This document shows positions 6,076 through 23,283 of a stretch of DNA of 64,000 nucleotides, piece by piece; positions within the stretch are counted from its first letter, which is position 1, and every line of letters starts with the position of its first letter. The notes beneath the pieces were generated by a model. The model saw only the letters and a program-made list of their open reading frames with translations. It was not told the DNA's origin and ran no database searches. The stretch is from NCBI RefSeq assembly GCF_000426705.1, contig NZ_AUFW01000017.1, positions 124,001 to 188,000 of the forward strand, written 5' to 3'. This stretch comes from Spirochaeta cellobiosiphila DSM 17781 (lineage in GTDB: Bacteria > Spirochaetota > Spirochaetia > DSM-17781). The position numbers and the translations under genes were made by a program.

Positions 6076-7440
6076 TTGCAGTTTCAAAAACCTGTAATGC
6101 GACAAGAACAGCGCCTCAAGATGAGCCCGCAGTTATTTCAGTCAATTCAACTGATGACACTGCCTGTTCAAGAATTGTCACAACGCATACATGACGAGGT
6201 TGAAAAGAACCCTGCATTAGAAATACTCTCGGAAAAGCCCTTATCCTCCTTAAGTGGAGAGGAACCCTCAGGGGAAGCAGATTACTTTGAAAACACATCA
6301 GACCCTGGATATTCTCCTCAATTAGCTAGTGAGAAGTCTGACAATAAGCGACAATTTCTGGAAGGTGCTATTAGCCGACCCGAAAGCCTTCATGAACATC
6401 TATTATGGCAGCTTCAACTTGAAATCCTCACCCCCCAACAGATGAAGGTGGGGGAACTTCTTATCAATAATTTGAACGAAGATGGTTTTCATATAGAAGA
6501 TCCAGAAACTCTTGTTAAAAGCAATGAATTGGATATCCTTTATAGTGTAATGGAAATAATACAGGAATTCGAACCAGAAGGAACTTGTACAGCCGATGTC
6601 CATGAGTCATTAATTGTACAGAGTCAGGTACTGGAAGGAGCCCCTAAAGAGCTGTCTGTTATACTAACAGAGCATTGGAATTTACTAGAAAAGGGTAAGA
6701 TTGATGAGCTTATTAAAGCAACTGGCTTTAATAGTTGGGATATTACTCATGCTTTGGATTACTTAAAGGATAAATTAAGTCCTTTTCCCGGGAGAAAGTT
6801 TTCTCAAGAATCAGCCACACTAGTTGTTCCTGACTTAATGTTAAGAACGAGAGAAGGTGAGTTTATCCTTGTATTAAATGACGAAGAAATACCCGTCTTA
6901 GGGGTAGATTCCTTATTCCAACAACTCATGAAGAATAAAGAAGACAGGAAGGCCAAACAATTTGTAACATCCAGAGTGAAAGACGCCCAATTTTTTATTA
7001 GAAGTATTCAACAACGTAATGATACATTACTAAAAGTAGCCAGGACAATAATAGAGTTCCAGAGAGACTTTTTTTATAAAGGACCAAAGTACCTGGTTCC
7101 TCTTACTCTTAAGGATATAGCCGAGGAGGTGGGTGTTCACGAAGCGACCGTGTCCAGACTAACTAACGGCAAATATTTACAAACAGAGAAGGGTATATAT
7201 GAACTAAAGTATTTCTTTTCCAACTCCGTAGGAACTAGCTCTGGTAATCCCAGCCGCTATTCCAAAGAAGGAGTCAAAGAAATCATAAGAGAAATTTTGG
7301 AAGAAAATACCTCGGGGAAGAAATTATCAGATCAAAAAATATCTGATATTTTACAGACCCGTGGAATAAAAGTAGCGAGGAGGACGGTGGCTAAGTATCG
7401 AGGAGAACTCGATATATCATCATCCTACTCAAGACAATAA
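6076..7440 (+). CDS. rpoN: RNA polymerase sigma-54 factor
   Basis: 454 residues. It starts at TTG 6076 with a strong GGAGG five bases upstream; no ATG is available nearby. Region I is the Gln/Leu-rich activator-response segment (QRLKMSPQLFQSIQLMTLP). The core-binding region follows, then the HTH that reads the -12 element, and the C-terminal RpoN box ARRTVAKYRGEL that reads -24. The protein needs an AAA+ activator; two, NifA and NtrX, are encoded in this window, and three sigma-54-type promoters are found near the nif genes. It lies 53 bases behind lptB. Confidence 0.97.
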   Translation: MQFQKPVMRQEQRLKMSPQLFQSIQLMTLPVQELSQRIHDEVEKNPALEILSEKPLSSLSGEEPSGEADYFENTSDPGYSPQLASEKSDNKRQFLEGAISRPESLHEHLLWQLQLEILTPQQMKVGELLINNLNEDGFHIEDPETLVKSNELDILYSVMEIIQEFEPEGTCTADVHESLIVQSQVLEGAPKELSVILTEHWNLLEKGKIDELIKATGFNSWDITHALDYLKDKLSPFPGRKFSQESATLVVPDLMLRTREGEFILVLNDEEIPVLGVDSLFQQLMKNKEDRKAKQFVTSRVKDAQFFIRSIQQRNDTLLKVARTIIEFQRDFFYKGPKYLVPLTLKDIAEEVGVHEATVSRLTNGKYLQTEKGIYELKYFFSNSVGTSSGNPSRYSKEGVKEIIREILEENTSGKKLSDQKISDILQTRGIKVARRTVAKYRGELDISSSYSRQ

Positions 7441-7959: not shown

Positions 7960-8274
7960 TTATTCCGCAAGAAGAAACTGATCAGCCCCTTCCCCTTCTT
8001 CAAGTGCATCGAGGATTTCATCAATATCATCTTCTGATTCGAATCCTCCATACCATTTGCCTTCAGGATAAATCACCATGGCTGGCCCACGGTCACATAC
8101 CTTTAAGCAACCAGTTGTCGAAACCATTACAGTCCCTAATTCATCCCGATCCATGAGTTCTGTTTCCAGATACTGTACAAAATTAAAGGCGCCTTTTTTA
8201 TGGCATACTCCCTGAGGAGTTCCAGCGGCTCTAAAGCTTGCACAGACCAAAATATGCCTGTCTGGTTTTTCCAT
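7960..8274 (-). CDS. Thioredoxin-like [2Fe-2S] ferredoxin, nif operon
   Basis: 104 residues with four Cys at 11, 24, 56 and 60 (VCASFRAAGTPQGVC and TGCLKVC), the cluster ligands of the thioredoxin-fold [2Fe-2S] ferredoxins first known from Clostridium pasteurianum and Azotobacter. The CDRGPAMVIYPEGKWYGG stretch and acidic tail are also typical. GGAGG stands 6 bases before the ATG. As the last gene of the nif operon, just after nifB, it may donate electrons in cofactor assembly or to nitrogenase; which of these is not settled by sequence. Confidence 0.88.
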   Translation of the reverse strand: MEKPDRHILVCASFRAAGTPQGVCHKKGAFNFVQYLETELMDRDELGTVMVSTTGCLKVCDRGPAMVIYPEGKWYGGFESEDDIDEILDALEEGEGADQFLLAE

Positions 8275-8310: not shown

Positions 8311-9561
8311 TCAACCACAACCTTGTGCCGTTCCCTGACAAGAAGAACCACAACTAAATGCTTGTCTTGGTTTAAGGGAGTCCATACTTTTTGATGTGTA
8401 AATCCTTTCTACACCCTCAGATATTAACCCTTCCATCATATGAATAGCGATCCCTGATTGGGTAAGGACTTTTTGAGGCTTAGGCCCAATACCACTGACA
8501 AGTAAAGCAGCACAATCTTTTAATAATTCAGCCAGGGCTTCCCAACGATCATTACCCGTGCCCTTTCCTGGTGAAGCTCTTCGCTCTACTGGAACAGTTC
8601 TACCATCTTCATACTTATATATTCGTATGTGAGTAGCTTCTCCAAGGTGTTCATTAACAAGAAATCCTTCCCGGCTAGTTACACCAACATAGGGTCTTGT
8701 TTTTCTGGGAACTCCCATACTTGCTTTAATTAACGCCTGTACTAATTCTTCAGGACTTTTCTGACCAAGTAAGCCAACAGCATCTGCTCTACATCGCATA
8801 CAGTGAGTCATCTGTGGTAAAAATTTTTGAGCCTCTGACCTAACCTGATGAATCAGTTCACGACTGGGCTCTTCTAGTACGCCAAAAGGAGTTCCTTCTA
8901 CAGGTTTTAGAGGTAGAATATTATGAACCTTTACCCCTTTATCTTTTAAAAATTCAGCAAGCTTGGGGATCTCTTTATCATTAACCCCAGGAAGTAAAAT
9001 AGTGTTGATCTTGATCTCAAAACCTGCAGCTAAAGCAGCATCCAATGCCTCAAGCTGCCTTCGTTTTATTTCCTGTCCAGCAGCCAAACCTCTAAATATT
9101 TTGACCTTAGGTCTGATCCAACTATAAGTATCAGCAAGAATCTGTTCATCCAGACCATTCATCGTTATAGTCAGGTGGCTGACTCCTACAGTCTTCAGCT
9201 CATCAATGTGTTCTGCAAGGGCCAAACCGTTAGTGCTCAAACAGAAGGTCATGTCTGGATCTTCTTCCCTAATGAGTCTAAAGGTTTCAATGGTAGCTTC
9301 AGGATTGGCCATAGGATCACCAGGTCCAGCGATACCAACAACGGCTAGATTACTAAGCTTCTCCTTAACTTCCTTGAAGTACTCCAATGCCTGGAGTGGT
9401 GTTAACACGGCACTTGTAACGCCAGGTCTGCTTTCATTAACACAGTCATATTTTCTATTACAAAAATTACATTGTACATTACATTTAGGAGCGACTGGGA
9501 TATGAACTCTGGCACTGGTAGCGTGGTCTTTTTTGTTGAAACAGGGATGTTTCTTACTCAT
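8311..9561 (-). CDS. nifB: NifB, radical SAM FeMo-cofactor precursor (NifB-co) synthase
   Basis: 416 residues. The radical-SAM motif C27-x3-C31-x2-C34 (CNVQCNFC) lies in the first 40 residues and is followed by the GIAGPGDPMANP and STNGLAL signatures. From about residue 290 a NifX/NafY-like domain is fused (starting near VGVTSREGFLVNEHLGEA), so the protein is the two-domain type. It fuses two [4Fe-4S] clusters with a carbide from SAM to give NifB-co, which goes to NifEN. The last 14 residues hold three Cys (CGSSCQGTAQGCG), an unusual tail. AAGGAGA precedes the ATG; 19 bases separate it from nifN. Confidence 0.97.
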   Translation of the reverse strand: MSKKHPCFNKKDHATSARVHIPVAPKCNVQCNFCNRKYDCVNESRPGVTSAVLTPLQALEYFKEVKEKLSNLAVVGIAGPGDPMANPEATIETFRLIREEDPDMTFCLSTNGLALAEHIDELKTVGVSHLTITMNGLDEQILADTYSWIRPKVKIFRGLAAGQEIKRRQLEALDAALAAGFEIKINTILLPGVNDKEIPKLAEFLKDKGVKVHNILPLKPVEGTPFGVLEEPSRELIHQVRSEAQKFLPQMTHCMRCRADAVGLLGQKSPEELVQALIKASMGVPRKTRPYVGVTSREGFLVNEHLGEATHIRIYKYEDGRTVPVERRASPGKGTGNDRWEALAELLKDCAALLVSGIGPKPQKVLTQSGIAIHMMEGLISEGVERIYTSKSMDSLKPRQAFSCGSSCQGTAQGCG

Positions 9562-9580
9562 TCTAATCTCCTTTGTTTAC

Positions 9581-10909
9581 CTAAATGTAGGTGTATCCTA
9601 TTTCCGAAGTATTTTGCTTTATCTCGATTAAGGTATTCACTACCCTATCAAAAAGGGTCAGACTTCCTTCGTAATCTATATGTTTAACTCTAGCAGCACC
9701 AAAGCGGTCATGTATGGGAAAACCAATTCTGATTAAGGGTATGTCCAATGCTTTGGACAACTTATATCCTTTACTATTACCAATGAGGAAATCTGCGTCT
9801 CCCTTATGTACTAGACTGGTCAAATCATCGAAATCTAAATCAACTTCTACTTGTACCTTTTCCGGATGTTTTAGATTTTGTTCTATTTCTGCCTTTAATA
9901 ATTTCGTATCAGATCCTGTTGCACAAAGGACAGGAACAATACCTATTTCTTCTAGAAATACAGCCATGGACAAAACTAATTCTGCTTCTCCATAGACAAC
10001 AGCTTTCTTACCAAAAGTATATTTATGAGCATCTGTATAGGCATCAAGTAGACGGTTACGCATGACAACAAACTCTTCTGGGATTTCCTTGCCTGTTAGC
10101 TTACGCATTAATCTGTGAAATCTATCAGACAGCTGTACACCAATAGGCATAGGAATTGTAAACCTTTGTTTATTAAGATTATCCCCTAGGTACTTAGTAC
10201 CCCCATTTTGAGTAAGAGTTGTAAAGTCGATACAGAAAGAGGCATCACCTGCTTGAGAAATTTGTTCAACAGGAACTCCACCTGGTGAGATCTTTTTATA
10301 GGACTCCCAGACTCCACCGTCTAATGTCTCCGAATAATCGCCCATCAATAATAGGGGATAATCATAGACTTTGAAGACTTTCTTGAGCTGTCTTAGATCT
10401 TCAGGACTGACTAATCCTGGTGTGATAACACCCAAATTACGAGGGAACTCCTGTTTGGCTAACGAAGAAAGAATCGCACCTATAGCGGCCCAATAACCAT
10501 CTGCATGGGTACCTCTATAACTTGGAGTTGATACATTGAACAATGTTGGTAACGGGTTTTCACCATGTTGTTTACGAAACTCGGATAACAATAAATTCAT
10601 ATCTTCACCTATTGTTTCTGTTAGACAGGTAGAAGCAATACCAATAGCCTGTGGATTATATTGACTTATTAAGTTGTTAATAGCTGTTGTTAAGTTACGT
10701 CCTCCACCAAAAATAGCCGTATCTTCTGTAAACGAAGTAGAAGCAATATCAATGGGTTCTCTATAATGGGAAATCGTGTAGCGCCTCATATAAGTGGCAC
10801 AACCTTGGGATCCATGGAGGAGAGGAATACAACCCTCTACTCCTTTAAAAGCTAAGCATGCACCCAATGGCGTACATAACTTACAAGCGTTTTGTGTAGC
10901 GGTTTTCAT
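9581..10909 (-). CDS. nifN: NifN, FeMo-cofactor maturation scaffold beta subunit
   Basis: 442 residues, NifK-like. Conserved N-terminal segments are CKLCTPLGACLAFKGVEGC and LLHGSQGCATYMRRYTISHY, then ASTSFTEDTAIFGGGRN and IGIASTCLTETIGEDM. These mark a nitrogenase-component-1 family beta-type subunit, and the position directly behind nifE with AGGAGG makes it NifN. With NifE it forms the scaffold on which NifB-co matures. NifK proper is encoded separately two genes upstream. Confidence 0.95.
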   Translation of the reverse strand: MKTATQNACKLCTPLGACLAFKGVEGCIPLLHGSQGCATYMRRYTISHYREPIDIASTSFTEDTAIFGGGRNLTTAINNLISQYNPQAIGIASTCLTETIGEDMNLLLSEFRKQHGENPLPTLFNVSTPSYRGTHADGYWAAIGAILSSLAKQEFPRNLGVITPGLVSPEDLRQLKKVFKVYDYPLLLMGDYSETLDGGVWESYKKISPGGVPVEQISQAGDASFCIDFTTLTQNGGTKYLGDNLNKQRFTIPMPIGVQLSDRFHRLMRKLTGKEIPEEFVVMRNRLLDAYTDAHKYTFGKKAVVYGEAELVLSMAVFLEEIGIVPVLCATGSDTKLLKAEIEQNLKHPEKVQVEVDLDFDDLTSLVHKGDADFLIGNSKGYKLSKALDIPLIRIGFPIHDRFGAARVKHIDYEGSLTLFDRVVNTLIEIKQNTSEIGYTYI

Positions 10910-10910
10910 C

Positions 10911-12248
10911 TTACAGAACCTCCTTTCTTAGATTCCATATAGGACTCATAACGGAAGCATGTACTTCAACGGCAAAGTTGTACATTCCTTTGAATCCTGC
11001 CAGAGCTATCTTACGTTCGTGATTGTGATCAACAAAACCTAATCCCATTTTCATTGCGATGGGACGTTCTTTAACACCTCCAATAAAGAGATCTGCACCT
11101 GTTTCTTTAACAAATTTTGATAATTCGAGAGGATTACTATCATCAACAATTATGGTTCCTGGTTCACATAGGTCCTGAAGCATTTCATAATCTTTTTTAT
11201 TTCCTGTTTGAGATCCAGCTATCACAACGGTCATTCCCAAATGTTTAAGTGCTTTTATTAGACTAAAAGCCTTAAAGGCCCCACCTACATAGATTGCCGC
11301 TTTCTTCCCTTCCAGATCATTTCGAAACGCTGTTAATTGTGGTAACAACTCTGATAATTCATCAGCTACCAACTCTTCTGTTTTTTGACGAATCTCAGGA
11401 TAATCACTAAAATGTTCTGCAACATCATAAAGAGCCTCAGCCATATCTTCGATTCCGAAATAACTGACACGGATATAAGGTATACCGTATTTTTCTTTCA
11501 TTAATTCAGCCAAATAGGTCATAGAACCTGAACACTGTACAACATTCAAAACTGCTCCGTGACTTCGGGCAATTCGTTCAACACGGCCATCACCAGTCAT
11601 TACGGCGACAACCTCTACACCCATTCTTTTGTAGTATTCCTGAATCATCCAGGCTTCACCAGCGAGATTGAACTCACCTAGTATGTTGATACTAACAGGA
11701 GATACATTATCTATATTGCCATGACCAATTAGGCTGAATAGCGCCTCACAAGCCGCTTTGTAACCATCTTTCTTAGTTCCTTTGAATCCTTCTGAATGAA
11801 CAGGTAGAACTGGAATGCCTTTTTCTTGACTTACTTTCTTACATACTGCATTTACGTCATCACCAATAATACCTATGATACAGGTAGAGTAAACAAAAGC
11901 AGCTTTAGGTTCATGTCTATCTATTAACTCGATTAGACTTTCATAAAGCTTTTTTTCCCCTCCATATATAACTTGTTTTTCACGAAGGTCAGTTGAAAAG
12001 CTGTTTCTATGAAGTTCTGGGCCGGAACTTAGGGCACCTCTTATATCCCAAGTGTAAACAGCACAACCAATAGGGCCGTGTACCAAATGAAGGGCATCAG
12101 CAACAGGATAGAGCACAACTCGGCTTCCGCAAAATACACAGGCTCTTTGACTGACAGAACCAGCTTCACTTTTCTTTTCACATGAGATGTTAAAATTATC
12201 CTTACCTTTTACTAATATTTGACCTTGTCTTGCAGCTATATAATCCAT
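10911..12248 (-). CDS. nifE: NifE, FeMo-cofactor maturation scaffold alpha subunit
   Basis: 445 residues, NifD-like but shorter. Cys37, Cys40 and Cys62 (ACVFCGSR and HGPIGCAVYTW) and the VYSTCIIGIIGDDV segment fit the P-cluster-like site of NifE. The FeMo-co ligands used by NifD are not conserved in the same way. It is translated from an AAGGGG site that sits directly beside a small palindrome (12260-12274) and 37 bases from a strong hairpin separating it from nifK. Overlap-free junction with nifN is one base. Confidence 0.95.
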   Translation of the reverse strand: MDYIAARQGQILVKGKDNFNISCEKKSEAGSVSQRACVFCGSRVVLYPVADALHLVHGPIGCAVYTWDIRGALSSGPELHRNSFSTDLREKQVIYGGEKKLYESLIELIDRHEPKAAFVYSTCIIGIIGDDVNAVCKKVSQEKGIPVLPVHSEGFKGTKKDGYKAACEALFSLIGHGNIDNVSPVSINILGEFNLAGEAWMIQEYYKRMGVEVVAVMTGDGRVERIARSHGAVLNVVQCSGSMTYLAELMKEKYGIPYIRVSYFGIEDMAEALYDVAEHFSDYPEIRQKTEELVADELSELLPQLTAFRNDLEGKKAAIYVGGAFKAFSLIKALKHLGMTVVIAGSQTGNKKDYEMLQDLCEPGTIIVDDSNPLELSKFVKETGADLFIGGVKERPIAMKMGLGFVDHNHERKIALAGFKGMYNFAVEVHASVMSPIWNLRKEVL

Positions 12249-12259
12249 ATTACTTCCCC

Positions 12260-12274
12260 TTGTTGAATCAACAA
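12260..12274 (-). repeat. Small palindrome beside the nifE ribosome binding site
   Basis: TTGTTGA-A-TCAACAA is a perfect 7-bp palindrome around one base, immediately upstream of the nifE Shine-Dalgarno (AGGGGAAG). It could be an RNA hairpin modulating nifE translation or a DNA site; only the symmetry is observed. Confidence 0.5.
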
Positions 12275-12284
12275 AAGCTCATAC

Positions 12285-12313
12285 CCGGTGCTGATCCCAG
12301 CCTTCAGCACCGG
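12285..12313 (-). other. Strong intercistronic hairpin between nifK and nifE
   Basis: A perfect 10-bp inverted repeat, CCGGTGCTGA (12285-12294) and TCAGCACCGG (12304-12313), with a 9-base loop, begins 10 bases after the nifK stop. There is no T run after it on the minus strand, so it is unlikely to be a full terminator. A likely role is protecting the 3' end of the nifHDK mRNA or partial attenuation so that nifHDK is expressed above nifEN. Confidence 0.8.
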
Positions 12314-12322
12314 AACTGAGCA

Positions 12323-13705
12323 TTACATTACTAGCTCGAATCGCTCTTCGGGAGCGTCTCGATCCTGTCGGTCATGGAACAGTCCCAATATTTTTTCTAC
12401 AATTCGAAGTCCGCCTTCATAACCTAAGGTTGTGAAATAACTGTGGCCAACTCGATCATATATGGGAAATCCATAGCGAAGGAAAGGTAAGTCCTCATCT
12501 CTTGCTATATATTTTCCATAAGTATTTCCTATCAATAGATCAACACCTTGTTCTTTGATCCACTGGTGTAATAAGAACATGTCTGCTTGTGGCCCGTTTT
12601 TAACTTTTCCATCAATACCATACTGTTCAAATAGCTCTTTGATTCTCTTCTCAAAGTATTTTCCAGGGGTTCCGGATACGACATATACAGGTTCCATATT
12701 TAGGTCTAATAAAAACTCTGTAAGAGGTATTAATTGATCAGGATCACCAAAAATCGCCACTCTCTTACCATGAAGATATTGTTCCTGGTCTGTGATTACG
12801 TCGACTAATCGTCCTCTTTCACTCTTGAAATCAGAAGGAACTTCAACACCAGCAGTCTGGGAAAGCTTCATGATAAATCGATCTGTAGCTTTGATTCCTA
12901 CAGGAATATCTAATACTTCATAATCAACGTTGCATTTTTTGTTTAAAAGCTTAGCAGCTTGTTCGGAAGCAAAGGACCCCATTGCTATTGTGAAGATAGA
13001 ATCACCAGCAGAGACTAACTCTTCTTTTGTTACTCCACCGTCTGGATACATTTGGTGTTTACCTATTAAAGGAGCATCAAGGACATCACTTGTATCAGGG
13101 AATAGTATATTCTCTACGCCCATTCTTTTAGCAATGGATTTGATTTGTCGCATATCACATGGTTCAACCCAACCAGGAATAAGATTAACCTTTCCATTGG
13201 ATTTGCCAGAATTAATAGATAAATACTTTACCATTGCTTCAACCATTGCAGAGAACCCTGTAATGTGGCTTCCAACATAAGAAGGTGTAGGTGCTGATAT
13301 AACAGACTTACCTTCCGGAACTTTACCATCTTCTTGAGCCTTGATTAGAATCTGATTCAAGTCATCACCTATAGTTTCAGATAAACAAGTACTGTGTACG
13401 GCAATGATTTCAGGATCATAAATAGTAAAAATGTTGTTTACAGCCTGTAATAAGTTAGCTTGACCACCAAATACAGAAGCACCTTCTGTAAAGGAAGAAG
13501 TTCCAGCCATAACTGGCTCTTTATAGTGTCTTGTCAATGCTGATCTATGATAAGCGCAGCAACCTTGTGATCCATGACTATGAGGTAAACAACCATGGAT
13601 TCCTAATGCTGCATACATAGCACCAACGGGCTGACAAGTTTTAACAGGGTTGATGGTTAACCCTTCTCTTTCTACCACATCTGCGGTTGTATGACGTAAT
13701 AACAT
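12323..13705 (-). CDS. nifK: NifK, nitrogenase MoFe protein beta subunit
   Basis: 460 residues. P-cluster ligand positions are visible as Cys24 (TCQPVGAMYAALGI), Cys49 (HGSQGCCAYHRS) and Cys107 (VHSTCLSETIGDD), and the HYKEPVMAGTSSFTEGASVFGG stretch is characteristic. The protein is short at the N-terminus compared with the proteobacterial form, as in clostridial and methanogen nitrogenases. It lies 11 bases after nifD with AAGGAG. It pairs with NifD in the alpha2beta2 MoFe protein. Confidence 0.98.
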   Translation of the reverse strand: MLLRHTTADVVEREGLTINPVKTCQPVGAMYAALGIHGCLPHSHGSQGCCAYHRSALTRHYKEPVMAGTSSFTEGASVFGGQANLLQAVNNIFTIYDPEIIAVHSTCLSETIGDDLNQILIKAQEDGKVPEGKSVISAPTPSYVGSHITGFSAMVEAMVKYLSINSGKSNGKVNLIPGWVEPCDMRQIKSIAKRMGVENILFPDTSDVLDAPLIGKHQMYPDGGVTKEELVSAGDSIFTIAMGSFASEQAAKLLNKKCNVDYEVLDIPVGIKATDRFIMKLSQTAGVEVPSDFKSERGRLVDVITDQEQYLHGKRVAIFGDPDQLIPLTEFLLDLNMEPVYVVSGTPGKYFEKRIKELFEQYGIDGKVKNGPQADMFLLHQWIKEQGVDLLIGNTYGKYIARDEDLPFLRYGFPIYDRVGHSYFTTLGYEGGLRIVEKILGLFHDRQDRDAPEERFELVM

Positions 13706-13716
13706 AACTTGTCTCC

Positions 13717-15321
13717 TTATCCTGCTGCGTATTGAGCTTCAACTTGCGTGGACTTTTCCCAAGGTGCTTCAACTAAATCCCAAACACGCGTTGTAACCAT
13801 TCGTTCGATATCTTTGTAGAAATTAATAGCTCCTACAAATCCAGCATAAGGTCCACCATAGTCATAAGAGTGTAATTGCTTTAGGGGAACTCCGCTCTTT
13901 TGCACAACATACTTTTCTTTTATACCTGCGCAGAAGATATCAGGCTTATATGCTTCAATAAGTTTTTCAGTTTCATAGTGACTGATATCATCAATAACAA
14001 GAGAGCCAGACTCCATGTCCCTCATCATTCCACCATATTCAGACCATTCAAGCTTATCGCTCTTAGTGTAGTCTCTGAACTCTTCATCAGATTTCTCAAC
14101 CTTGATTTCTTCAATATTTCGAGAATCAGCATCTACTTTGATATCTGGAATGATTTCACGACCTTCATAGTCATCACGATGTCCGAACTCATATCCAGCA
14201 GCCAAAGTTTTCATACCTAATTCATTGAATAGTTCCTGGTAATGATGAGCTCTTGATCCACCAACAAAGAGCATGGCTGTTTTACCTTCAGTATTTGGTC
14301 GAAGTTTGGCAACAGTTTCTTCTATTTGGATTGTTTCTTCTTTGATAACTTCTTCTACACGTTGTATTAACTCTTTATCATCAAAATACTCAGCTATCTT
14401 TCGGAGTGATTTGGCAGTAGATTCAGCACCAATGAAATTAACTTTCATCCAAGGGATCCCATACTTTGTTTCCATCATTTCAGCTACATAGTTGATAGAT
14501 CGATGACACATTACAACATTTAGATCAGCAAAATGACTGTTGGCAAATGAGTTATAATGTGAGTTACCACTAAAAGTTGATACAAGAGTTAATCCTGCTT
14601 TTTCGAAGATTCTTTCTAACTCAAATGCATCACCACCAATGTTGTATTCACCAAGAATATTAACTTTGAATTTGCCTTCTGGTTCTTTATCCTGTGTACC
14701 AATAACATGTTTGAATAACTGGTTATTAGCAATGTGGTGACCAGCTGACTGGCTAACACCTTTGTAACCTTCACAAGAAAATCCAAAGACATTACAATCG
14801 CCTAATTCTGCTGTCATTTCACGTGCTACAGCATGAACATCATCACCAATCAACCCAACAGGACAAGTTGAGAATATCCCAATGGCTTTAGGATGAAATA
14901 AGTCATAAGCTTCTTGAACAGCTTTCCTTAGCTTCTTTTCCCCACCAAATACAATGTTTTGATCCTGCATATCAGTACTAAAACAGTAGTTCATGAAATT
15001 CTCTTCACTACCTTCAGCAGGTTTCGTTTGATTACGTCTTGTTAACCAGCTATAAAAACCACAGCCGATTGGACCATGTGTTAAGTTAATAATGTCACGA
15101 GTTGGTCCTAAAACTACCCCTTTACACCCAGCATAGGTACAACCTCGCTGAGTTATGATTCCAGGAACGGTACGTACGTTCGCCTGGATTTCCAAAGCTT
15201 TATCTTTGTTTCCATCATTGGTAACCATTGATTTCTTTCTTTTTCTTGCTACCTTAGTTGGATACTTTGCTAGAATCTCTTCTTTGATCAGCTCTGGAGC
15301 CGGAATGGTATGTTCACCCAT
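13717..15321 (-). CDS. nifD: NifD, nitrogenase MoFe protein alpha subunit (clostridial-type with insertion)
   Basis: 534 residues from ATG 15321, which has AGGAG 8 bases upstream; an upstream in-frame reading into nifI2 is not real. P-cluster ligands are Cys61, Cys87 (HGPIGCGFYSW) and Cys153. Cys272 (MCHRSINYVAEM) and His484 (QLHSYDYGGPYAG) hold FeMo-co, and the GVSQSAGHHIANN segment has the substrate-channel His195. All expected residues for an active Mo nitrogenase are present. About 50 extra residues (roughly 390-440, Asp/Glu rich) match the insertion typical of clostridial NifD. Confidence 0.98.
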   Translation of the reverse strand: MGEHTIPAPELIKEEILAKYPTKVARKRKKSMVTNDGNKDKALEIQANVRTVPGIITQRGCTYAGCKGVVLGPTRDIINLTHGPIGCGFYSWLTRRNQTKPAEGSEENFMNYCFSTDMQDQNIVFGGEKKLRKAVQEAYDLFHPKAIGIFSTCPVGLIGDDVHAVAREMTAELGDCNVFGFSCEGYKGVSQSAGHHIANNQLFKHVIGTQDKEPEGKFKVNILGEYNIGGDAFELERIFEKAGLTLVSTFSGNSHYNSFANSHFADLNVVMCHRSINYVAEMMETKYGIPWMKVNFIGAESTAKSLRKIAEYFDDKELIQRVEEVIKEETIQIEETVAKLRPNTEGKTAMLFVGGSRAHHYQELFNELGMKTLAAGYEFGHRDDYEGREIIPDIKVDADSRNIEEIKVEKSDEEFRDYTKSDKLEWSEYGGMMRDMESGSLVIDDISHYETEKLIEAYKPDIFCAGIKEKYVVQKSGVPLKQLHSYDYGGPYAGFVGAINFYKDIERMVTTRVWDLVEAPWEKSTQVEAQYAAG

Positions 15322-15331
15322 TTGATTCTCC

Positions 15332-15709
15332 TTAGTCCAAGATATCATCACCGGTTTCACCGGTTCTGACTCTAGCGGCTTCGTGTATTGGTAACACGAA
15401 GATCTTCCCATCACCGGCATGGCCGGTTTTGTTAGTCTTAATGATGGTATCAACAACAGTTTTGACCTTCCCATCAGGAACAGTCACAGTCAAAAGCCTT
15501 TTAGGAACCAATCGGGGTCCTTGCCCTAATTGGTCTATGGCTTCCTGATACCCCTCTTTTGCACCGGCTAATATCCGGTAATCGACTTGACCTTTACCTC
15601 TACCCATCACACGACCAGTAGCAGTAAAGCTTGATATCCCTACAGCAGCTAAAGCCCGTTTGGTATCATTGATCTTGTTCATGCGAATGACTGCCATTAC
15701 TTCTTTCAT
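15332..15709 (-). CDS. nifI2: NifI2, PII-like regulator of nitrogenase activity
   Basis: 125 residues of the GlnB/PII superfamily. It starts MKEVMAVIRMNKINDTKRAL, has a T-loop region after GRGKGQVDYR and the C-terminal GDGKIFVLPIHEAARVRTGE signature. NifI1 and NifI2 form a complex that, when 2-oxoglutarate is low, binds the MoFe protein and stops nitrogenase without covalent modification; this is established in methanogens. It lies between nifI1 and nifD as in archaeal and clostridial clusters. It is translated from GAAGAAGAG overlapping the end of nifI1. Confidence 0.95.
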   Translation of the reverse strand: MKEVMAVIRMNKINDTKRALAAVGISSFTATGRVMGRGKGQVDYRILAGAKEGYQEAIDQLGQGPRLVPKRLLTVTVPDGKVKTVVDTIIKTNKTGHAGDGKIFVLPIHEAARVRTGETGDDILD

Positions 15710-15713
15710 AGCA

Positions 15714-16043
15714 TCACTCTTCTTCGGAAAGACCAGAAGAAATGGTATAAACTTCGTCCACAGGGCTCACGAAGATCTTCCCATCACCGAAGGCACCAGA
15801 AGCACTTGTCTTAGCTTCTTCCATTATGGTTTTAAGGACGAAATCCTTATCTTTGTCCTTAACTACGGTGAGAAGAAGTTCTTTAGGGAGTTCGTCATAC
15901 ACTACTTCTCCGACCTTTAATCCTCTTTGCTTTCCTCGACCAACAACACTTACTTTGGTTACGGCAGGATAACCTGCATCTAACAGAGCCGCCAAAACAC
16001 TATCTGATTTTTCCGGCCGTACTATGGATCTAATCATTAACAT
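15714..16043 (-). CDS. nifI1: NifI1, PII-like regulator of nitrogenase activity
   Basis: 109 residues from ATG 16043, chosen because AGGAGA stands 7 bases upstream; a start at 16070 would overlap nifH and has no Shine-Dalgarno. It is a PII-superfamily protein: IRSIVRPEKSDSVLAALLDA at the N-terminus, T-loop after VGRGKQRGLKVGEVVYDEL, and the C-terminal GDGKIFVSPVDEVYTI signature. It partners NifI2 for 2-oxoglutarate and nucleotide-dependent switch-off of nitrogenase. Located 16 bases behind nifH. Confidence 0.95.
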   Translation of the reverse strand: MLMIRSIVRPEKSDSVLAALLDAGYPAVTKVSVVGRGKQRGLKVGEVVYDELPKELLLTVVKDKDKDFVLKTIMEEAKTSASGAFGDGKIFVSPVDEVYTISSGLSEEE

Positions 16044-16059
16044 TGGGCTTCTCCTGGTA

Positions 16060-16920
<861 letters not shown>

Positions 16921-16923
16921 CTA

Positions 16924-16942
16924 TTGCAGGAGCTGTGCCAAA
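16924..16942 (-). promoter_or_regulatory. Sigma-54 promoter of nifH operon
   Basis: On the minus strand TTGGCAC-AGCTC-CTGCAA has the -24 GG and -12 GC exactly 10 bases apart (GG at 16939-16938, GC at 16927-16926). The predicted +1 is near 16914, giving a 36-base leader before nifH. The -24 half is a consensus match; the -12 half has C instead of the first T. Confidence 0.88.
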
Positions 16943-17226
16943 CTTATGATTTGAGTCAAAGGGATACAGTTTTTCCCCTTTTTAACAAAATCGTGACAAA
17001 TTCATCTGTTTTTATTAGAAAAGGATATATTATGTTTTTTATAACCATTACTACTGAGTAAATTCACTAAGACCTTATGACGTAAATGTAAATTTATGTG
17101 AATTAAGAGGTTTTCCATAGATAAGCATAACTTTATGCCTCAATTATCTCCATAAAGGCTAAAAGTATCTTCAACTAGAATAAGGATAACTAACAGAATT
17201 GTAAAAAACGGAACTATAACCGGAAT
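16943..17226. promoter_or_regulatory. Upstream control region of nifH
   Basis: 284 bases without a gene between the nifH promoter and the GNAT stop. It is very AT rich. I found no TGT-N10-ACA site, the NifA operator known in proteobacteria. The best symmetric element is GCATAA-CT-TTATGC (17125-17138), a perfect 6-bp inverted repeat about 210 bases upstream of the predicted nifH start. That is within reach of a looping activator, but nothing else supports it. Confidence 0.35.
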
Positions 17227-17691
17227 TTATGCAGTTTTTACATAGAAAAGCATTTCGGGGTTGGTCTTGTCAAAACCGAATTTGTGATAAAGTTTTTGGG
17301 CATAAAGATTATCTTTACGTACCTCAAGGGAAATCTTGACAGCATCCTGATCTTTGGCCCAAATAAGGAAATGTTCAAATAAGTAACTTCCATTTCCCAG
17401 ACGTCTATAATCAGGATGGATATAGAAATCATGTATATTATATGCCTTGCCTCCAAGAAATGTAGAATACACCTCAAAGGCAAGGATAAAACCAATTGGT
17501 TCACTACAGTGACAGGAAAAGAAACCTTTTATGTGGAGCATGGAAGATAGATCTGCCAAGATCCTACTTTTCTTCTCTTTTGTAAGAACAGGGAGTCCTC
17601 CCATAGGATCTAACATATAACCTTCAAGTAAACTCAAGAAATCGATTTGATCTTTGCTATTATTAAAATCAATTTTCCTGAAATTACTCAT
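17227..17691 (-). CDS. GNAT-family N-acetyltransferase
   Basis: 154 residues with the GNAT acetyl-CoA-binding motif A (FYIHPDYRRLGNGSYL, R/Q-x-x-G-x-G) near residue 95 and motif B with VRKDNLYAQKLYHKFGF near 125. The substrate cannot be predicted. The ATG is 4 bases past the nifA stop with AAGGA upstream, so it is the last gene of nifV-nifA-GNAT and probably co-regulated with nitrogen fixation. No relation to NifL can be seen. Confidence 0.85.
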   Translation of the reverse strand: MSNFRKIDFNNSKDQIDFLSLLEGYMLDPMGGLPVLTKEKKSRILADLSSMLHIKGFFSCHCSEPIGFILAFEVYSTFLGGKAYNIHDFYIHPDYRRLGNGSYLFEHFLIWAKDQDAVKISLEVRKDNLYAQKLYHKFGFDKTNPEMLFYVKTA

Positions 17692-17695
17692 ACCA

Positions 17696-19246
17696 TTAAT
17701 CCTTGTTAGGGTTTCTATAAATCCTATAATCTATATCGTATTTTTTTAATCGCAATCCTAACTTACGATAAGATAGACCTAAAACATCGGACGCTTTACT
17801 TACATTTCCATTTGCCTTTTTCAATTCTTCAATAATAAGTTCATACTCAATAGCATCTAAAGTTGTTTCTAGATTTCCCTTAAAATGTGTTGATGCGGGA
17901 TGGCTGGTCTGAAGCGTTGGTGGTAAATCATAACCATGAATAGTGTCAGAATCTGCTAATATCACAGCACGCTCTAAACAATTTTCCAACTCACGTACAT
18001 TTCCCGGCCAATGATAGCTCATGAGCATATCAATGGCAGCTGTAGATATTCTCCGGATGTTTTTTCCTAGTTTATCAGAATATTTCTTTATAAAAAAATC
18101 AGCTAATAACGGAATATCTGTTTTTCGATCTCGCAATGAAGGGACAGTTATAGGAAAAACATTGAGTCGATAATAGAGATCTTCCCTAAATTCCCCTTTT
18201 TGTACTAAGGATTCTAGGTTTTTATTCGTTGCAGCCACAATACGTACATCACAAGTTAAACTTTGATCAGATCCAACTGGCTGAAATTCATGTTCCTGCA
18301 AGATACGCAATAATTTAGTTTGGACATTCAAACTGAGCTCACCAACTTCATCCAGGAATAAGGTGCCACCTTCTGCTAACATAAAGCGCCCAAGCCTTTT
18401 ATTGATTGCTCCAGTAAAGGCACCCTTTTCATGACCAAACAATTCGGATTCAACCATACTTTCAGGCAAGGCAGCACAGTTAAAGCGAATAAAAGGTCCT
18501 GATGTACGATAACTTGCTGCATAAATAGAATGAGCTACTAACTCTTTTCCTACACCACTTTCACCTAATATAAGAGTAGTAGTATCTGTAGGTGCTATTT
18601 TTTGAATAAGGTAGAAGACATCCCGCATACCCTTAGCATTACCAATAATATTATCAGGATGAAATTGCTCAAGGAGTTGAGAATGTAATCGCTGGTTTTC
18701 ATCACGCAACTTTAGATTTTCTTCATGTATTGATCTATGAAGTCTTACGGCACGAGCTATCATAGGTGTGATAATGCTTAATATTTTTTGATCTGTTTCT
18801 AGGGTTTCCTGACCAGCTTTATTCCGATACGCACTTAACGTTCCCAGAACTTCTTTGCCATAACAAATAGGAACGCATAAAAAGGATTGATCATCCGATC
18901 CTATACCTGTTTTGTTGAGGAATCTAGAATCCTTAGCTACATCAGGAACAATAACGGGTTTACCCGTCTCAACAACTTCCCCTGTGATGCCTTCACCAAG
19001 TCGATAAACTCCTCTGGCTTGCTCCTCTTCGGTCATGCCAAATGATTCCTCAGTGAATATGGCACCATTTTCCCTATTTAAAATAGTCAACATACCTCTA
19101 GTAAGACCAAGATAATCTTTCATAACCATAAGAACGGGAGTGAAAACTTCTGATATTTCCTCCTCCCGACTCAAAGCTTCAGATACTTTATGAAGTAAAT
19201 CGACTACCTTTGATGCATCATTTTCAACATTAAGCAGTGACGGCAT
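17696..19246 (-). CDS. nifA: NifA, sigma-54-dependent activator of nif genes
   Basis: 516 residues. An N-terminal GAF domain (about 20-165) is followed by the AAA+ domain: Walker A GESGVGKELVAHS, sigma-54 contact loop GAFTGA, Walker B LFLDEVGEL and the WPGNVRELENC segment. The C-terminal Fis-type HTH reads VSKASDVLGLSYRKLGLRLKK. The interdomain linker lacks the paired Cys of oxygen-sensing rhizobial NifA proteins (only the Cys of RELENC remains), and no nifL is nearby. It overlaps nifV by 17 bases, so its expression depends on the nifV promoter, itself of sigma-54 type. Confidence 0.93.
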   Translation of the reverse strand: MPSLLNVENDASKVVDLLHKVSEALSREEEISEVFTPVLMVMKDYLGLTRGMLTILNRENGAIFTEESFGMTEEEQARGVYRLGEGITGEVVETGKPVIVPDVAKDSRFLNKTGIGSDDQSFLCVPICYGKEVLGTLSAYRNKAGQETLETDQKILSIITPMIARAVRLHRSIHEENLKLRDENQRLHSQLLEQFHPDNIIGNAKGMRDVFYLIQKIAPTDTTTLILGESGVGKELVAHSIYAASYRTSGPFIRFNCAALPESMVESELFGHEKGAFTGAINKRLGRFMLAEGGTLFLDEVGELSLNVQTKLLRILQEHEFQPVGSDQSLTCDVRIVAATNKNLESLVQKGEFREDLYYRLNVFPITVPSLRDRKTDIPLLADFFIKKYSDKLGKNIRRISTAAIDMLMSYHWPGNVRELENCLERAVILADSDTIHGYDLPPTLQTSHPASTHFKGNLETTLDAIEYELIIEELKKANGNVSKASDVLGLSYRKLGLRLKKYDIDYRIYRNPNKD

Positions 19247-20381
19247 GACTTAGGGTGTCCTTGAAGTGCTTGTATATGTCAAGAATCTCCTTATTTTCTA
19301 GATAAGAGTGTTTAACTTCAGAAGTTTCCCTTATTTGAGGTAGCATAGCCAAAGCCTCTTCCCTAGTTATAAAAACTCCTTGATCACTTAATATTCTTTG
19401 GACCATAAAAGAACCTGAATGGCTTCCAACAACAAAACTATGCCCATCATAACCAAACTCTTTAGGGTCTAGTTCACAAAAAGTTCTGTCATCCTGTAAT
19501 AATCCATGGCCATGGACACCAGATTCGTGGGTAAATACATTAACCCCTGTAATAGGATTACACATATTTCGATCAAAACCTGATAACTCTTTGAATGTAC
19601 TTGCTAGAGTTGGTAATGCTTTTCTACTTACAGATGTAAAATAATTACCTTGATAAGGTAGTGCTGTAACAACTTCTTCAAGACTAGCATTACCCGCACG
19701 TTCGCCTACACCACTGATTGTAACACTAATCTCTTTGGCACCGCCCTCTACAGCAGCTAAGCTATTAGCAGTAGCCAATCCTAAATCGTTGTGACCATGA
19801 AACTCTAGAATTGCTTTGGTATTTACGTGAAGCTTTTCAAAGAGCTCTTTTATTTGATCAGGAGTGGAAATTCCTACAGTATCAGCAATTCTTACACGAT
19901 TAACGCCTGCGGCATCCGCTCGATGAACAAATTGTTTGAGATCATGTAAGGAAGCTCTGGTAGCATCCATAGCACCAAGACTAACATAGTCAAAGTGAAC
20001 CCTGGCTAAAGCGACTAGTTCCGGTATTGTATCCAGAACCCATTTCCAATCCTTTTCATATAGTTTTAATTGTATATCGGAGACAGGAAAAGCGATGTGA
20101 ATACTAGATACATTTGAACGTGCAGCTTCCAAGATATCCTCTTTTCTTGCACGGCACCATGCAGTAACACGTACATTGGGGATATCATGTTTTAAACTTC
20201 TCAAAAAACGGATTTCCTGTTTATCCATAATGGGAATACCAGCTTCCAACTCATTAACACCTGCTTCTGCTAACATTCTAGCAATAGCTTTTTTCTCTGA
20301 ATGGTTTAAAGAAACACCTGGGGCTTGAAGCCCATCTCTGAGGGTACTATCAATTATCCATAATTGCTCGTATTTGTTCAT
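19230..20381 (-). CDS. nifV: NifV, homocitrate synthase
   Basis: Condenses acetyl-CoA with 2-oxoglutarate to give homocitrate, the organic ligand of FeMo-co. 383 residues from ATG 20381, chosen for GGAGG 8 bases upstream; a longer reading would run through the sigma-54 promoter. The TIM-barrel DRE motif is [14 protein letters not shown], metal-binding HGHND is in [16 protein letters not shown], and [14 protein letters not shown] is typical of the family. Isopropylmalate synthase is excluded by the short length (no LeuA regulatory domain) and by the position with nifA. Confidence 0.93.
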
Positions 20382-20402: not shown

Positions 20403-20422
20403 TATGCAATATATATGCCAAA
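20403..20422 (-). promoter_or_regulatory. Sigma-54 promoter of nifV-nifA
   Basis: Minus strand TTTGGCAT-ATATA-TTGCATA has GG at 20419-20418 and GC at 20407-20406 with exactly 10 bases between, and both halves match consensus well. The predicted +1 near 20394 leaves a leader of about 13 bases that starts with the GGAGG ribosome site. Confidence 0.88.
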
Positions 20423-20711
20423 GCACAATTAAAAATATATTAATAAATAATTCTTTTTGTAACAAATAAATAATCACACAAATATAGAAATTACATCTAA
20501 AACAAAAAAACTACACAAACTACAATTAACAACAATTTTGTATGGTTTTTATGTATTATCTACATTCCTGATCTATCTATCTTTATAAAATGGTAGGAAT
20601 AGTTCTACATAATAGAAAAATAGATATTCACAATTAACATTAATGTAAAAACAACCGTTTTACCTCATCTTATATTTCCTTACCGGATCAATACTTATTA
20701 TTTTCCAAGCA
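20423..20711. promoter_or_regulatory. Shared control region between two divergent sigma-54 promoters
   Basis: About 290 AT-rich bases between the -24 elements of nifV and of the two-gene unit. There is no TGT-N10-ACA. The best symmetric element is GTAAAA-N7-TTTTAC (20645-20663), a 6-bp inverted repeat centred about 85 bases upstream of the predicted start of the rightward unit, a typical distance for an activator site. No coding potential is seen. Confidence 0.45.
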
Positions 20712-20729
20712 TTGGCATGATTAATGCTT
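20712..20729 (+). promoter_or_regulatory. Sigma-54 promoter of the uncharacterised two-gene unit
   Basis: TTGGCATGATTAATGCTT has GG at 20714-20715 and GC at 20726-20727 with exactly 10 bases between. The predicted +1 is near 20739, so the leader is about 12 bases and begins with AGGAGG, the same compact layout as at nifV. Confidence 0.8.
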
Positions 20730-20750
20730 TTATTAATTAGGAGGTAACAT

Positions 20751-21089
20751 ATGAGCGATAACACAGGAACAAACTATCTTAAAACCATAGAAAAGAGTCT
20801 TGAGTCTCAAAAGTTCTCAAATGATTTTCTATGGGATTTACTTTTTATGGCCTTAGAAAGTTTGTCCACTAGTTACTATACTGATCCCATGGATGTCCCC
20901 CATCATTTAACAGGTAAAATAATGGGAATACGAGAAAAAGGGTTCATTGATGCCTATCAAGAAGAGGTCTTACTTACAATGAGTAGAACGAGTGCATGTT
21001 GTTCCACAAAACCTAATTATATCAATCTTGATTTCGCCCAATGTTTTGAAGCTGTTAAATCACTCCGGAGGGAATCTAATGTTCACTAA
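20751..21089 (+). CDS. Uncharacterised 112-residue protein in the predicted nif regulon
   Basis: I do not recognise a family. The protein is soluble, mostly helical by eye, with no signal peptide, and carries one Cys pair (ACCSTKPNYINLDF, about residues 82-83) plus a later Cys. It is translated from TTAGGAGG 7 bases before the ATG and reads from a sigma-54-type promoter. It stands divergent to nifV-nifA and overlaps the next gene by 11 bases. These features suggest a role under nitrogen-fixing conditions; nothing in the sequence says what it does. Confidence 0.8.
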   Translation: MSDNTGTNYLKTIEKSLESQKFSNDFLWDLLFMALESLSTSYYTDPMDVPHHLTGKIMGIREKGFIDAYQEEVLLTMSRTSACCSTKPNYINLDFAQCFEAVKSLRRESNVH

Positions 21090-21495
21090 AATCGAAGTAC
21101 CTAAAGATTATGAAGTTTGGGCAGATCAAAGTTACCATAAAATACAAAGGCATTTAAAAGATAAAGGAATAGAATTCTTTGAAGATCTTTTATTGGACTG
21201 GATAGCAGCTCCTTATTTTTCTCTATGGAAAGGAAAAAACAAAGAAGGAATCATTTGGGTTCTTCATAATGACCTAGCCACAGATGCCTTTGTTGACAAA
21301 GATATGATACAAACTCGCCAAGCGTTAGCATTCTACGCTTATCGGTGGATTAATTGCAGTGACTTAAAAATATATAATGATTTAACAGCTGAAAAAGGTA
21401 TCTCAGAGATTAACCTTTATGGAAGCATATCATCATTAGGTAAAGTTTTGAGCGAAACAGTAGAAGACCCAGAATTATGGGAAGAAGAGGAATAG
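21079..21495 (+). CDS. Small acidic protein resembling DUF4826, predicted nif regulon
   Basis: 138 residues from ATG 21079 (CCGGAGGG upstream), overlapping the preceding gene by 11 bases. The pattern WIAAPYFSLWKGKNKEG, then WVLHNDLATDAF, a later ALAFYAYRW and an acidic end DPELWEEEE resembles what I recall of DUF4826 proteins; I could not check this. No signal peptide or membrane segment is seen. With its partner it forms a two-gene unit behind a sigma-54 promoter. Function unknown. Confidence 0.75.
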   Translation: MFTKIEVPKDYEVWADQSYHKIQRHLKDKGIEFFEDLLLDWIAAPYFSLWKGKNKEGIIWVLHNDLATDAFVDKDMIQTRQALAFYAYRWINCSDLKIYNDLTAEKGISEINLYGSISSLGKVLSETVEDPELWEEEE

Positions 21496-21534: not shown

Positions 21535-23283
21535 CTATAATTCTTCTAACATTCCATCCTCTTCAAATAATGCATGTTTAGAAATTGCCAAGCTTTCCAT
21601 CAATTCATCAATACTTCTCTTAACCTGTTCACTCATTGGTTCAAATTGCACTCCGTAACTGACAGGTAAAAACCCCGACCCCTCTTTTTTTACCCACCTG
21701 ACTTTTCCTTTTACAACAATATGAGATTCTTCCTTACGAAATAAGCGGGGTAAAACTAATTTGAATTTTTTTACTGAACCTTCTTCTTCCATTTTATCCG
21801 ATAAAATCATCATCCCTCCTGGAGACAAATCTCCTATAAAGCCGACATGAGACATATCTTCATCCACTATTTCAAGATTATACATAAGACGATGCCTAAC
21901 GGCTCTTCGACCATTACGGAATTTCAGACTTTCCTCATCTAGTTCAAAAGTTCTAATAAAAATTGCTAATTCTTCACCGCCTACTTTTAAAAACTGTGAT
22001 AACTCAGCAAGCATAACAGAAACATCAGCCTGGTGTTGTGCATTTTTAGAAGCTTCAGTGATACCTGCCTGTATCTCTGCATAACCAGATATCTGGTTTT
22101 TAAGTTTAGTCCCTGCCTCAATAGAAGAATGATGAGTCTTTTCTCCATATCTAATCAAATCCTGCATCTTTCCAATTTGAGTATAAAGCTCCTTATTAAC
22201 CTGGGCTGCCACTTCATGGATTTCATCAACATAGGAAATCAACTCAACATAACTATCATTTGATCTAGCAGACCATTCTTTGAGCTCCTTTGCCGTAGAT
22301 TCCCAGTTGACGATAGTATTTTGTACTCTTTTATTAGATTCACTTAACTGTTCTATTGTCTGAGAGACATCACTAATAGCATTTTGTGCAGTACCAGCAA
22401 GGCCATGCATTTCTTTTGCTATAACACCAAAACCTTTACCAGACGACCCCGCACGCGCAGCCTCTACAGCGGCATTAATGGCTAATGTATGAATATTCTC
22501 TGCAATTTCATCAATACTAGATAAGGTTTTAGCAACATGAGTGGTTTCACTTAATACTGATTGAACACTATTAGATATATCTACCATGCTTTTAGTTATC
22601 TCTTCTGAATACTTTGCATTCTTCTCAATACTTTCTTTACCAATTGATAAAGATTGAGATGAGGCTAGGGTTTTATCATCAAGGGCTTTCATCTCATCTA
22701 TGAGGGTATCATTTTGTTCAACAAAACTTTGAAAAGTATGATGACTTAATTGAGCATGCTGTACTAAATCATCCATCAAACTGGTCATTCCATTTAATTC
22801 TGATTCAAAGGTATCTATTTTTTGCAGTACTTCTTTCATAAATAAAGCTTGTTCAGAAGATTGCTCTGTTAATTGTTTTGAGGAAAAATTCATATCTGTG
22901 GAAAAAAAAGTAAACTTAACTGCTGATTCTTTGATCAGAAATAAATCCTCATTTAATTTTTCAAGTAATTCAATGTAAGGCCTAATAAGACGAGCCAATA
23001 AACCACTTGCTTTTTGAGCTTCTTTTATACGTTTGAAATCACCCTTTCCTTCTTTGAAACGTTCTGCCCTTTGATAATAGGGTTTAAGTTTCATATGCAT
23101 CCATTTTTTATAGATTACTAGGGACAGTATTATCATTATGCAGCTTATGAAAAAAATAGATAGGTAATATATCAGTCCCCTTTTTTCAGAAAGGGGATTA
23201 AAAAATAAGAATAGTGATTGTATAAGAGCTAAACATAAGCCAATGAATACATCTATGTGATATGAATACTGCTTCGATTTCAT
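21535..23283 (-). CDS. Chemoreceptor with C-terminal PilZ domain
   Basis: 582 residues. Two transmembrane segments near the N-terminus (about 9-29 and 38-60) are joined by only some 8 residues, so there is no periplasmic sensor domain. A long coiled-coil signalling region follows, with the methyl-accepting hairpin tip LAINAAVEAARAGSSGKGFG near residue 275. A PilZ domain occupies about 470-575, with both c-di-GMP-binding motifs: RRAVRHR and DLSPGG. Input is therefore probably cytoplasmic, with c-di-GMP acting at the C-terminus. It starts 3 bases after the adenosine deaminase stop, last gene of the gcv run. Confidence 0.92.
   Translation of the reverse strand: MKSKQYSYHIDVFIGLCLALIQSLFLFFNPLSEKRGLIYYLSIFFISCIMIILSLVIYKKWMHMKLKPYYQRAERFKEGKGDFKRIKEAQKASGLLARLIRPYIELLEKLNEDLFLIKESAVKFTFFSTDMNFSSKQLTEQSSEQALFMKEVLQKIDTFESELNGMTSLMDDLVQHAQLSHHTFQSFVEQNDTLIDEMKALDDKTLASSQSLSIGKESIEKNAKYSEEITKSMVDISNSVQSVLSETTHVAKTLSSIDEIAENIHTLAINAAVEAARAGSSGKGFGVIAKEMHGLAGTAQNAISDVSQTIEQLSESNKRVQNTIVNWESTAKELKEWSARSNDSYVELISYVDEIHEVAAQVNKELYTQIGKMQDLIRYGEKTHHSSIEAGTKLKNQISGYAEIQAGITEASKNAQHQADVSVMLAELSQFLKVGGEELAIFIRTFELDEESLKFRNGRRAVRHRLMYNLEIVDEDMSHVGFIGDLSPGGMMILSDKMEEEGSVKKFKLVLPRLFRKEESHIVVKGKVRWVKKEGSGFLPVSYGVQFEPMSEQVKRSIDELMESLAISKHALFEEDGMLEEL

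Follow-up and report, generated by a model that had tools for sequence, protein, structure and literature searches.

In this study, we examined two small genes, ORF1 and ORF2, that lie beside the nitrogen fixation genes of Spirochaeta cellobiosiphila, whose 3.95-Mb genome falls in the same class as the Spirochaetales MAGs mentioned below. The whole stretch of DNA analysed, 64 kb in length, is called the window here. It holds the cluster nifHI1I2DKENB, a nifV-nifA-GNAT group, and rpoN, which encodes sigma-54 (Table 1). The top matches of NifV and NifA are their own named families, although both score below the equivalog cut-offs by a slight or moderate margin. The genome encodes two NifA-type activators, which are 55% identical across 393 compared residues, and the gene of the paralogue adjoins amtB. 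By eye, a small ferredoxin-like gene (7960-8274, minus strand) immediately follows nifB. A gene for a methyl-accepting chemotaxis protein with a C-terminal PilZ domain (21535-23283, minus strand) is convergent to ORF2.

An earlier note on this DNA described ORF1 and ORF2 as a pair encoding 112 and 138 residues with an 11-base overlap, preceded by a sigma-54 promoter of exact GG-N10-GC spacing and separated by 290 bases from the divergent promoter of nifV. The gene coordinates, the overlap, the promoter and the gap were all found as described. When the window was scanned for a 13-position -24/-12 consensus in which GG-N10-GC was fixed, the three best intergenic sites in the 64 kb were the nifH, nifV, and ORF1 promoters, and there were no other good intergenic ones; the remaining top site, at position 81, is apparently inside a gene. 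TTGGCAYN6TGCW has 12 matches in the whole genome, compared with two for the reversed control. These 12 sites precede nifH, nifV, ORF1, the type III glutamine synthetase gene, amtB, three Hsp20-family genes, an AraC-type regulator gene, and a DUF2202 gene, and two of them fall within genes. The geometry of the two divergent promoters is nearly identical, with 39 nt (ORF1) and 40 nt (nifV) between the -24 element and the ATG. The predicted ORF1 transcript would start near 20739, leaving a leader of only about 12 nt, and a GGAGG ribosome-binding site is located 6 bases 5' of the ATG. The interval between ORF2 and the convergent chemotaxis gene contains a strong hairpin, which is a probable transcript end.

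Table 1 Features of the nif region and the ORF1-ORF2 unit (positions in the window).
Feature	Position	Strand	Remarks
rpoN (sigma-54)	6076..7440	+	TIGR02395, 393 bits, above cut-off; PF04552
nifHI1I2DKENB	8311-16878	minus	gene cluster
sigma-54 promoter, nifH	16925..16941	-	-24/-12 consensus scan
candidate activator dyad upstream of nifH	17077..17092		11.3 bits, third in window
candidate activator dyad upstream of nifH	17190..17205		11.1 bits, fourth in window
nifV-nifA-GNAT	17227-20381	minus	
nifA-type activator	17696..19246	-	GAF + AAA+ + Fis HTH; TIGR01817, 504 bits (cut-off 528.85)
nifV (homocitrate synthase)	19230..20381	-	TIGR02660 is the best family, score below equivalog cut-off
sigma-54 promoter, nifV-nifA	20405..20421	-	TTGGCATATATATTGCA; -24/-12 consensus scan
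second candidate activator dyad	20529..20544		ACAACAATTTTGTATG; 10.7 bits, fifth in window; about 108 bases upstream of nifV promoter
candidate activator (UAS) dyad	20634..20649		TTAACATTAATGTAAA; 15.8 bits, best in window; 78 bases upstream of ORF1 -24 element
sigma-54 (-24/-12) promoter, ORF1-ORF2	20712..20728	+	TTGGCATGATTAATGCT; score 12, joint best in window
ORF1	20751..21089	+	112 aa, orphan
ORF2	21079..21495	+	138 aa, DUF4826 (PF16108)
strong hairpin in the gap from ORF2 to the convergent MCP-PilZ gene	21496..21534		fold -16.8 kcal/mol

Profile searches, suggested in the earlier note for both proteins, assigned a family to ORF2 but none to ORF1. The resemblance of ORF2 to DUF4826, suggested in the earlier note, was borne out by a match of 41.9 bits (curated cut-off 22; E = 1.4e-10) over profile positions 6-129 of 129. 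Fourteen residues are invariant in the five spirochaete homologues (ORF2 numbering): M1, E6, E12, W14, L39, W41, P45, W60, H63, W90, L124, D130, L133, and W134. A match of the DUF4826 profile to PDB chain RPB_PLP3_R6 was discarded as far too weak. ORF1 has no family match among the Pfam, NCBIfam, or PHROGs profiles, and its NCBIfam match to DndA (E = 0.14) was likewise far too weak. No relative of ORF1 was present in 395 genomes of the class, and the plasmid, phage, and viral contig collections contained no relatives of either protein. Weak ORF1 matches among the 395 genomes (best E = 0.004) were rejected, as the top one runs antisense to an oxidoreductase gene and the rest are noise-like, their number being that expected by chance. 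In codon statistics, ORF1 scores 0.095 bits per codon, more than any of the eight spurious nested ORFs (maximum 0.066) and less than ORF2 (0.21) or nifI (0.20-0.22); the coding statistics of ORF2 are nif-like. AlphaFold models had mean pLDDT values of 56.6 for ORF1, an all-helical prediction of low confidence, and 67.9 for ORF2; with these poor models, Foldseek returned nothing at E ≤ 0.001.

DUF4826 homologues were found in five of the 395 genomes of the class (E ≤ 0.001), a sample with no other members of the family to which the source genome belongs; the copy in genome G129 scores just below the curated cut-off. Sampling across the phylum showed the family in G000 and G063 only. Of two scans of genome contigs, one was empty and the other yielded only two Spirochaetales MAGs that were already known. 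All five DUF4826 genomes possess nifH (NifH above cut-off), compared with 45 of 395 overall (Fisher 1.6e-5, uncorrected for kinship and with three genera behind it). Within family f26, nifH is present in 4/4 DUF4826 genomes versus 11/26 (p = 0.02). DUF4826 is dispensable, because 40 of the 45 nifH-bearing spirochaetes do without it.

Adjacency of a homologue to nif genes was seen in one other genome. In G063, the DUF4826 gene is located 70 bases 3' of nifK, in a nifHI1I2DK cluster behind the nifH sigma-54 promoter. By eye, an integrase-like fragment, a nucleotidyltransferase/HEPN-like pair, and other genes split that nif cluster between DUF4826 and nifE (L009, 7169-9806). No such linkage exists in G168 and G186, where the gene lies between queH-like and endonuclease IV-like (nfo) genes in a non-nif operon without a sigma-54 site. 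In G129, the gene stands alone, on the same contig as nifH at a distance of about 190 kb and outside any nif cluster, with a sigma-54 site of its own (TTGGCATCCTAATTGCA) about 55 bases 5' of the ATG. A candidate dyad (CATACAAAATTGTGGG, score 10.2) is present 68 bases upstream of this site; it is the second best match in its 19.5-kb locus, and about 1.6% of 300-base windows score as high. Another G129 gene with an identical -24/-12 box has a best dyad score of only 2.1.

The canonical NifA upstream activator sequence in Proteobacteria is TGT-N10-ACA (PMC4999443). This motif was sought in the control regions of nifH and nifV-ORF1 and not found. A different dyad, ACA-N4-TGT, occurs 27 times upstream of nifH, glutamine synthetase, and amtB promoters, a count that takes in three sites of the nifV-ORF1 and G129 DUF4826 regions, compared with 0-6 occurrences of the same triplet at the other spacers tested. 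The same site read one base wider, TAC-N6-GTA, occurs 28 times. The dyad, TACA-N4-TGTA, was first spotted post hoc in the source genome; therefore, it was tested out of sample with a symmetric matrix built from 18 sites of other genomes and run on the window. Four of the top five matches in the 64 kb are located in two nif control regions totalling 578 bp (binomial 3e-8), and the best of all is the one upstream of ORF1. No other 290-base segment of the 64 kb reaches 15.8 bits, and 0.4% reach 10.7. The second best match, TTTACCTAAATGTAGG (9576-9591), is at the nifN-nifB junction and may be an internal activator site or a chance occurrence.

The specificity of the dyad was assessed from the best match within 300 bases of sigma-54 promoters of five genomes. 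Nitrogen-gene promoters score at least 10, and Hsp20, PspA, and ClpB promoters score at most 6.1. In this comparison, promoters outside the training set (type III glutamine synthetase, nifH, and amtB of the source genome, and amtB of G168) score 11.6-16.5. The dyad marks nitrogen control and not nif specifically, because glnN (glutamine synthetase) and amtB carry the same dyad. ORF1-ORF2 and one distant homologue (that of G129) thus each have a sigma-54 box together with an activator dyad, the two halves of a nitrogen-type promoter. Strong nitrogen-type dyads were also observed at five other sigma-54 promoters (L022, L077, L083, L087, and L089); the genes behind them encode an AraC-type regulator, two ABC solute-binding proteins (one Pfam-checked), a response regulator, and a dihydroorotate/dihydropyrimidine dehydrogenase-like protein, and are candidate members of the nitrogen regulon. 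Some Hsp20 sigma-54 promoters (L015 and L021 in the source genome, L093 in G129) carry a distinct dyad, TGTCAAAANGAAACA, which is likely a separate stress-activator site; other hsp20 promoters examined do not have it. In 15 other spirochaete genomes, nifH has no upstream sigma-54 site scoring 10 or more; therefore, nif control there is probably different.

We consider it likely that ORF1-ORF2 is a two-gene transcription unit in the NifA-type activator and sigma-54 nitrogen-control regulon of this diazotrophic spirochaete. The main rival reading, which is unlikely but deserves serious weight, is that the unit belongs to a general nitrogen-starvation regulon unrelated to nitrogenase, and that its position next to nifV is a convenience of sharing a promoter region. 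Such a regulon would accord with the same dyad and sigma-54 box before glnN and amtB, in the source genome and in relatives, and with the distance of about 190 kb between the G129 copy and nifH. It sits poorly with the presence of nifH in every one of the five DUF4826 spirochaetes, though 350 of the 395 genomes lack nifH, and with the G063 copy directly behind nifK. The nif adjacency in two lineages and the co-occurrence with nifH favour the nif reading over general nitrogen starvation. ORF1 might also be a leader whose translation couples or tunes that of ORF2, with no functional protein as its product. We regard this as rather improbable: the lack of relatives wherever they were searched for, the weak coding statistics, the poor fold, and the ORF2 homologues that manage without ORF1 are in its favour, but ORF1 has a good ribosome-binding site and a coding score above that of spurious ORFs, and 112 codons would be long for a leader.

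Two further explanations concern the promoter itself. At the score of the ORF1 promoter, 0.75 sites are expected by chance per 64 kb; the score alone is thus no proof, and position and context carry the case. A chance site in front of ordinary neighbouring genes is nevertheless hardly credible, as the site lies on the correct strand 39 nt before the ATG with the best dyad of the window upstream, and a homologue elsewhere (G129) has the same arrangement. Assignment to a sigma-54 stress regulon under an Hsp20/PspA-type activator would fit the fact that sigma-54 also drives hsp20, pspA, and clpB in these genomes; it is very unlikely, since the hsp20-type dyad is missing from the nifV-ORF1 region (best match with four mismatches) and nitrogen dyads are present.

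Membership of ORF1-ORF2 in a nitrogen or nif regulon is well supported at the sequence level, and the two genes are probably switched on alongside nitrogen fixation. Their proposal in the earlier note as candidates for the nitrogen fixation regulon is upheld with respect to NifA-type/sigma-54 nitrogen control through common dyads, the nif linkage of DUF4826, the separate sigma-54 control in G129, and the co-occurrence with nifH; it is weakened by the occurrence of the same dyad at glutamine synthetase and amtB and by the non-nif location of two of the five spirochaete homologues.

We propose a scheme for the control of this unit. Under nitrogen limitation, a NifA-family activator (the product of the nifA-type gene in the window or the amtB-linked paralogue) would bind the two TACA-N4-TGTA dyads between nifV and ORF1 (20634 and 20529) and, from this joint region, fire sigma-54 polymerase at both divergent promoters, transcribing nifV-nifA and ORF1-ORF2, and the location of nifA downstream of nifV would allow self-amplification. 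Translation of ORF2 is presumably coupled to that of ORF1, and transcription would stop at the hairpin 3' of ORF2. ORF2 may be a small helper protein in the cytosol of nitrogen-fixing cells, one that serves nitrogenase or the pathways supplying it and is not an enzyme of cofactor synthesis, with ORF1 as a possible lineage-specific partner. The role of ORF2 as a nitrogen fixation helper is a guess, and a doubtful one. We offer with similar reserve the broader idea that spirochaetes have in DUF4826 a new protein family of the nif regulon, serving to assist or protect nitrogenase, and that spirochaete NifA-type activators use a TACA-N4-TGTA enhancer.

These findings bring two candidate members to a nitrogen fixation regulon, and the papers found say little about how nif genes are controlled in this phylum. 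DUF4826, a family without an assigned function and with no mention in the literature searched, gains a testable physiological setting through the nif linkage of ORF2. A small nitrogenase helper protein, CowN, is known (PMC8047169). ORF1 and ORF2 resemble CowN-like helpers in being small and in their proposed co-production with nitrogenase; this parallel is functional only and speculative, and neither protein matches any such family in Pfam or NCBIfam. The TACA-N4-TGTA motif separates spirochaete nitrogen promoters from sigma-54 stress promoters. No description of this spirochaete dyad emerged from a limited literature search, which argues only weakly for its novelty. Regulation of this kind is already known; what is new is the spirochaete dyad and the placement of DUF4826 and an orphan gene under it. 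In common with the proteobacterial NifA/sigma-54 nif regulon, the locus has -24/-12 promoters, a GAF-AAA-HTH NifA-type activator, and divergent nif promoters with a joint control region. The proteobacterial regulon uses TGT-N10-ACA, whereas the dyad here is TACA-N4-TGTA and is common to glutamine synthetase and amtB; if this distinct spirochaete enhancer is real, it would define a regulon whose members could be predicted in one genome after another.
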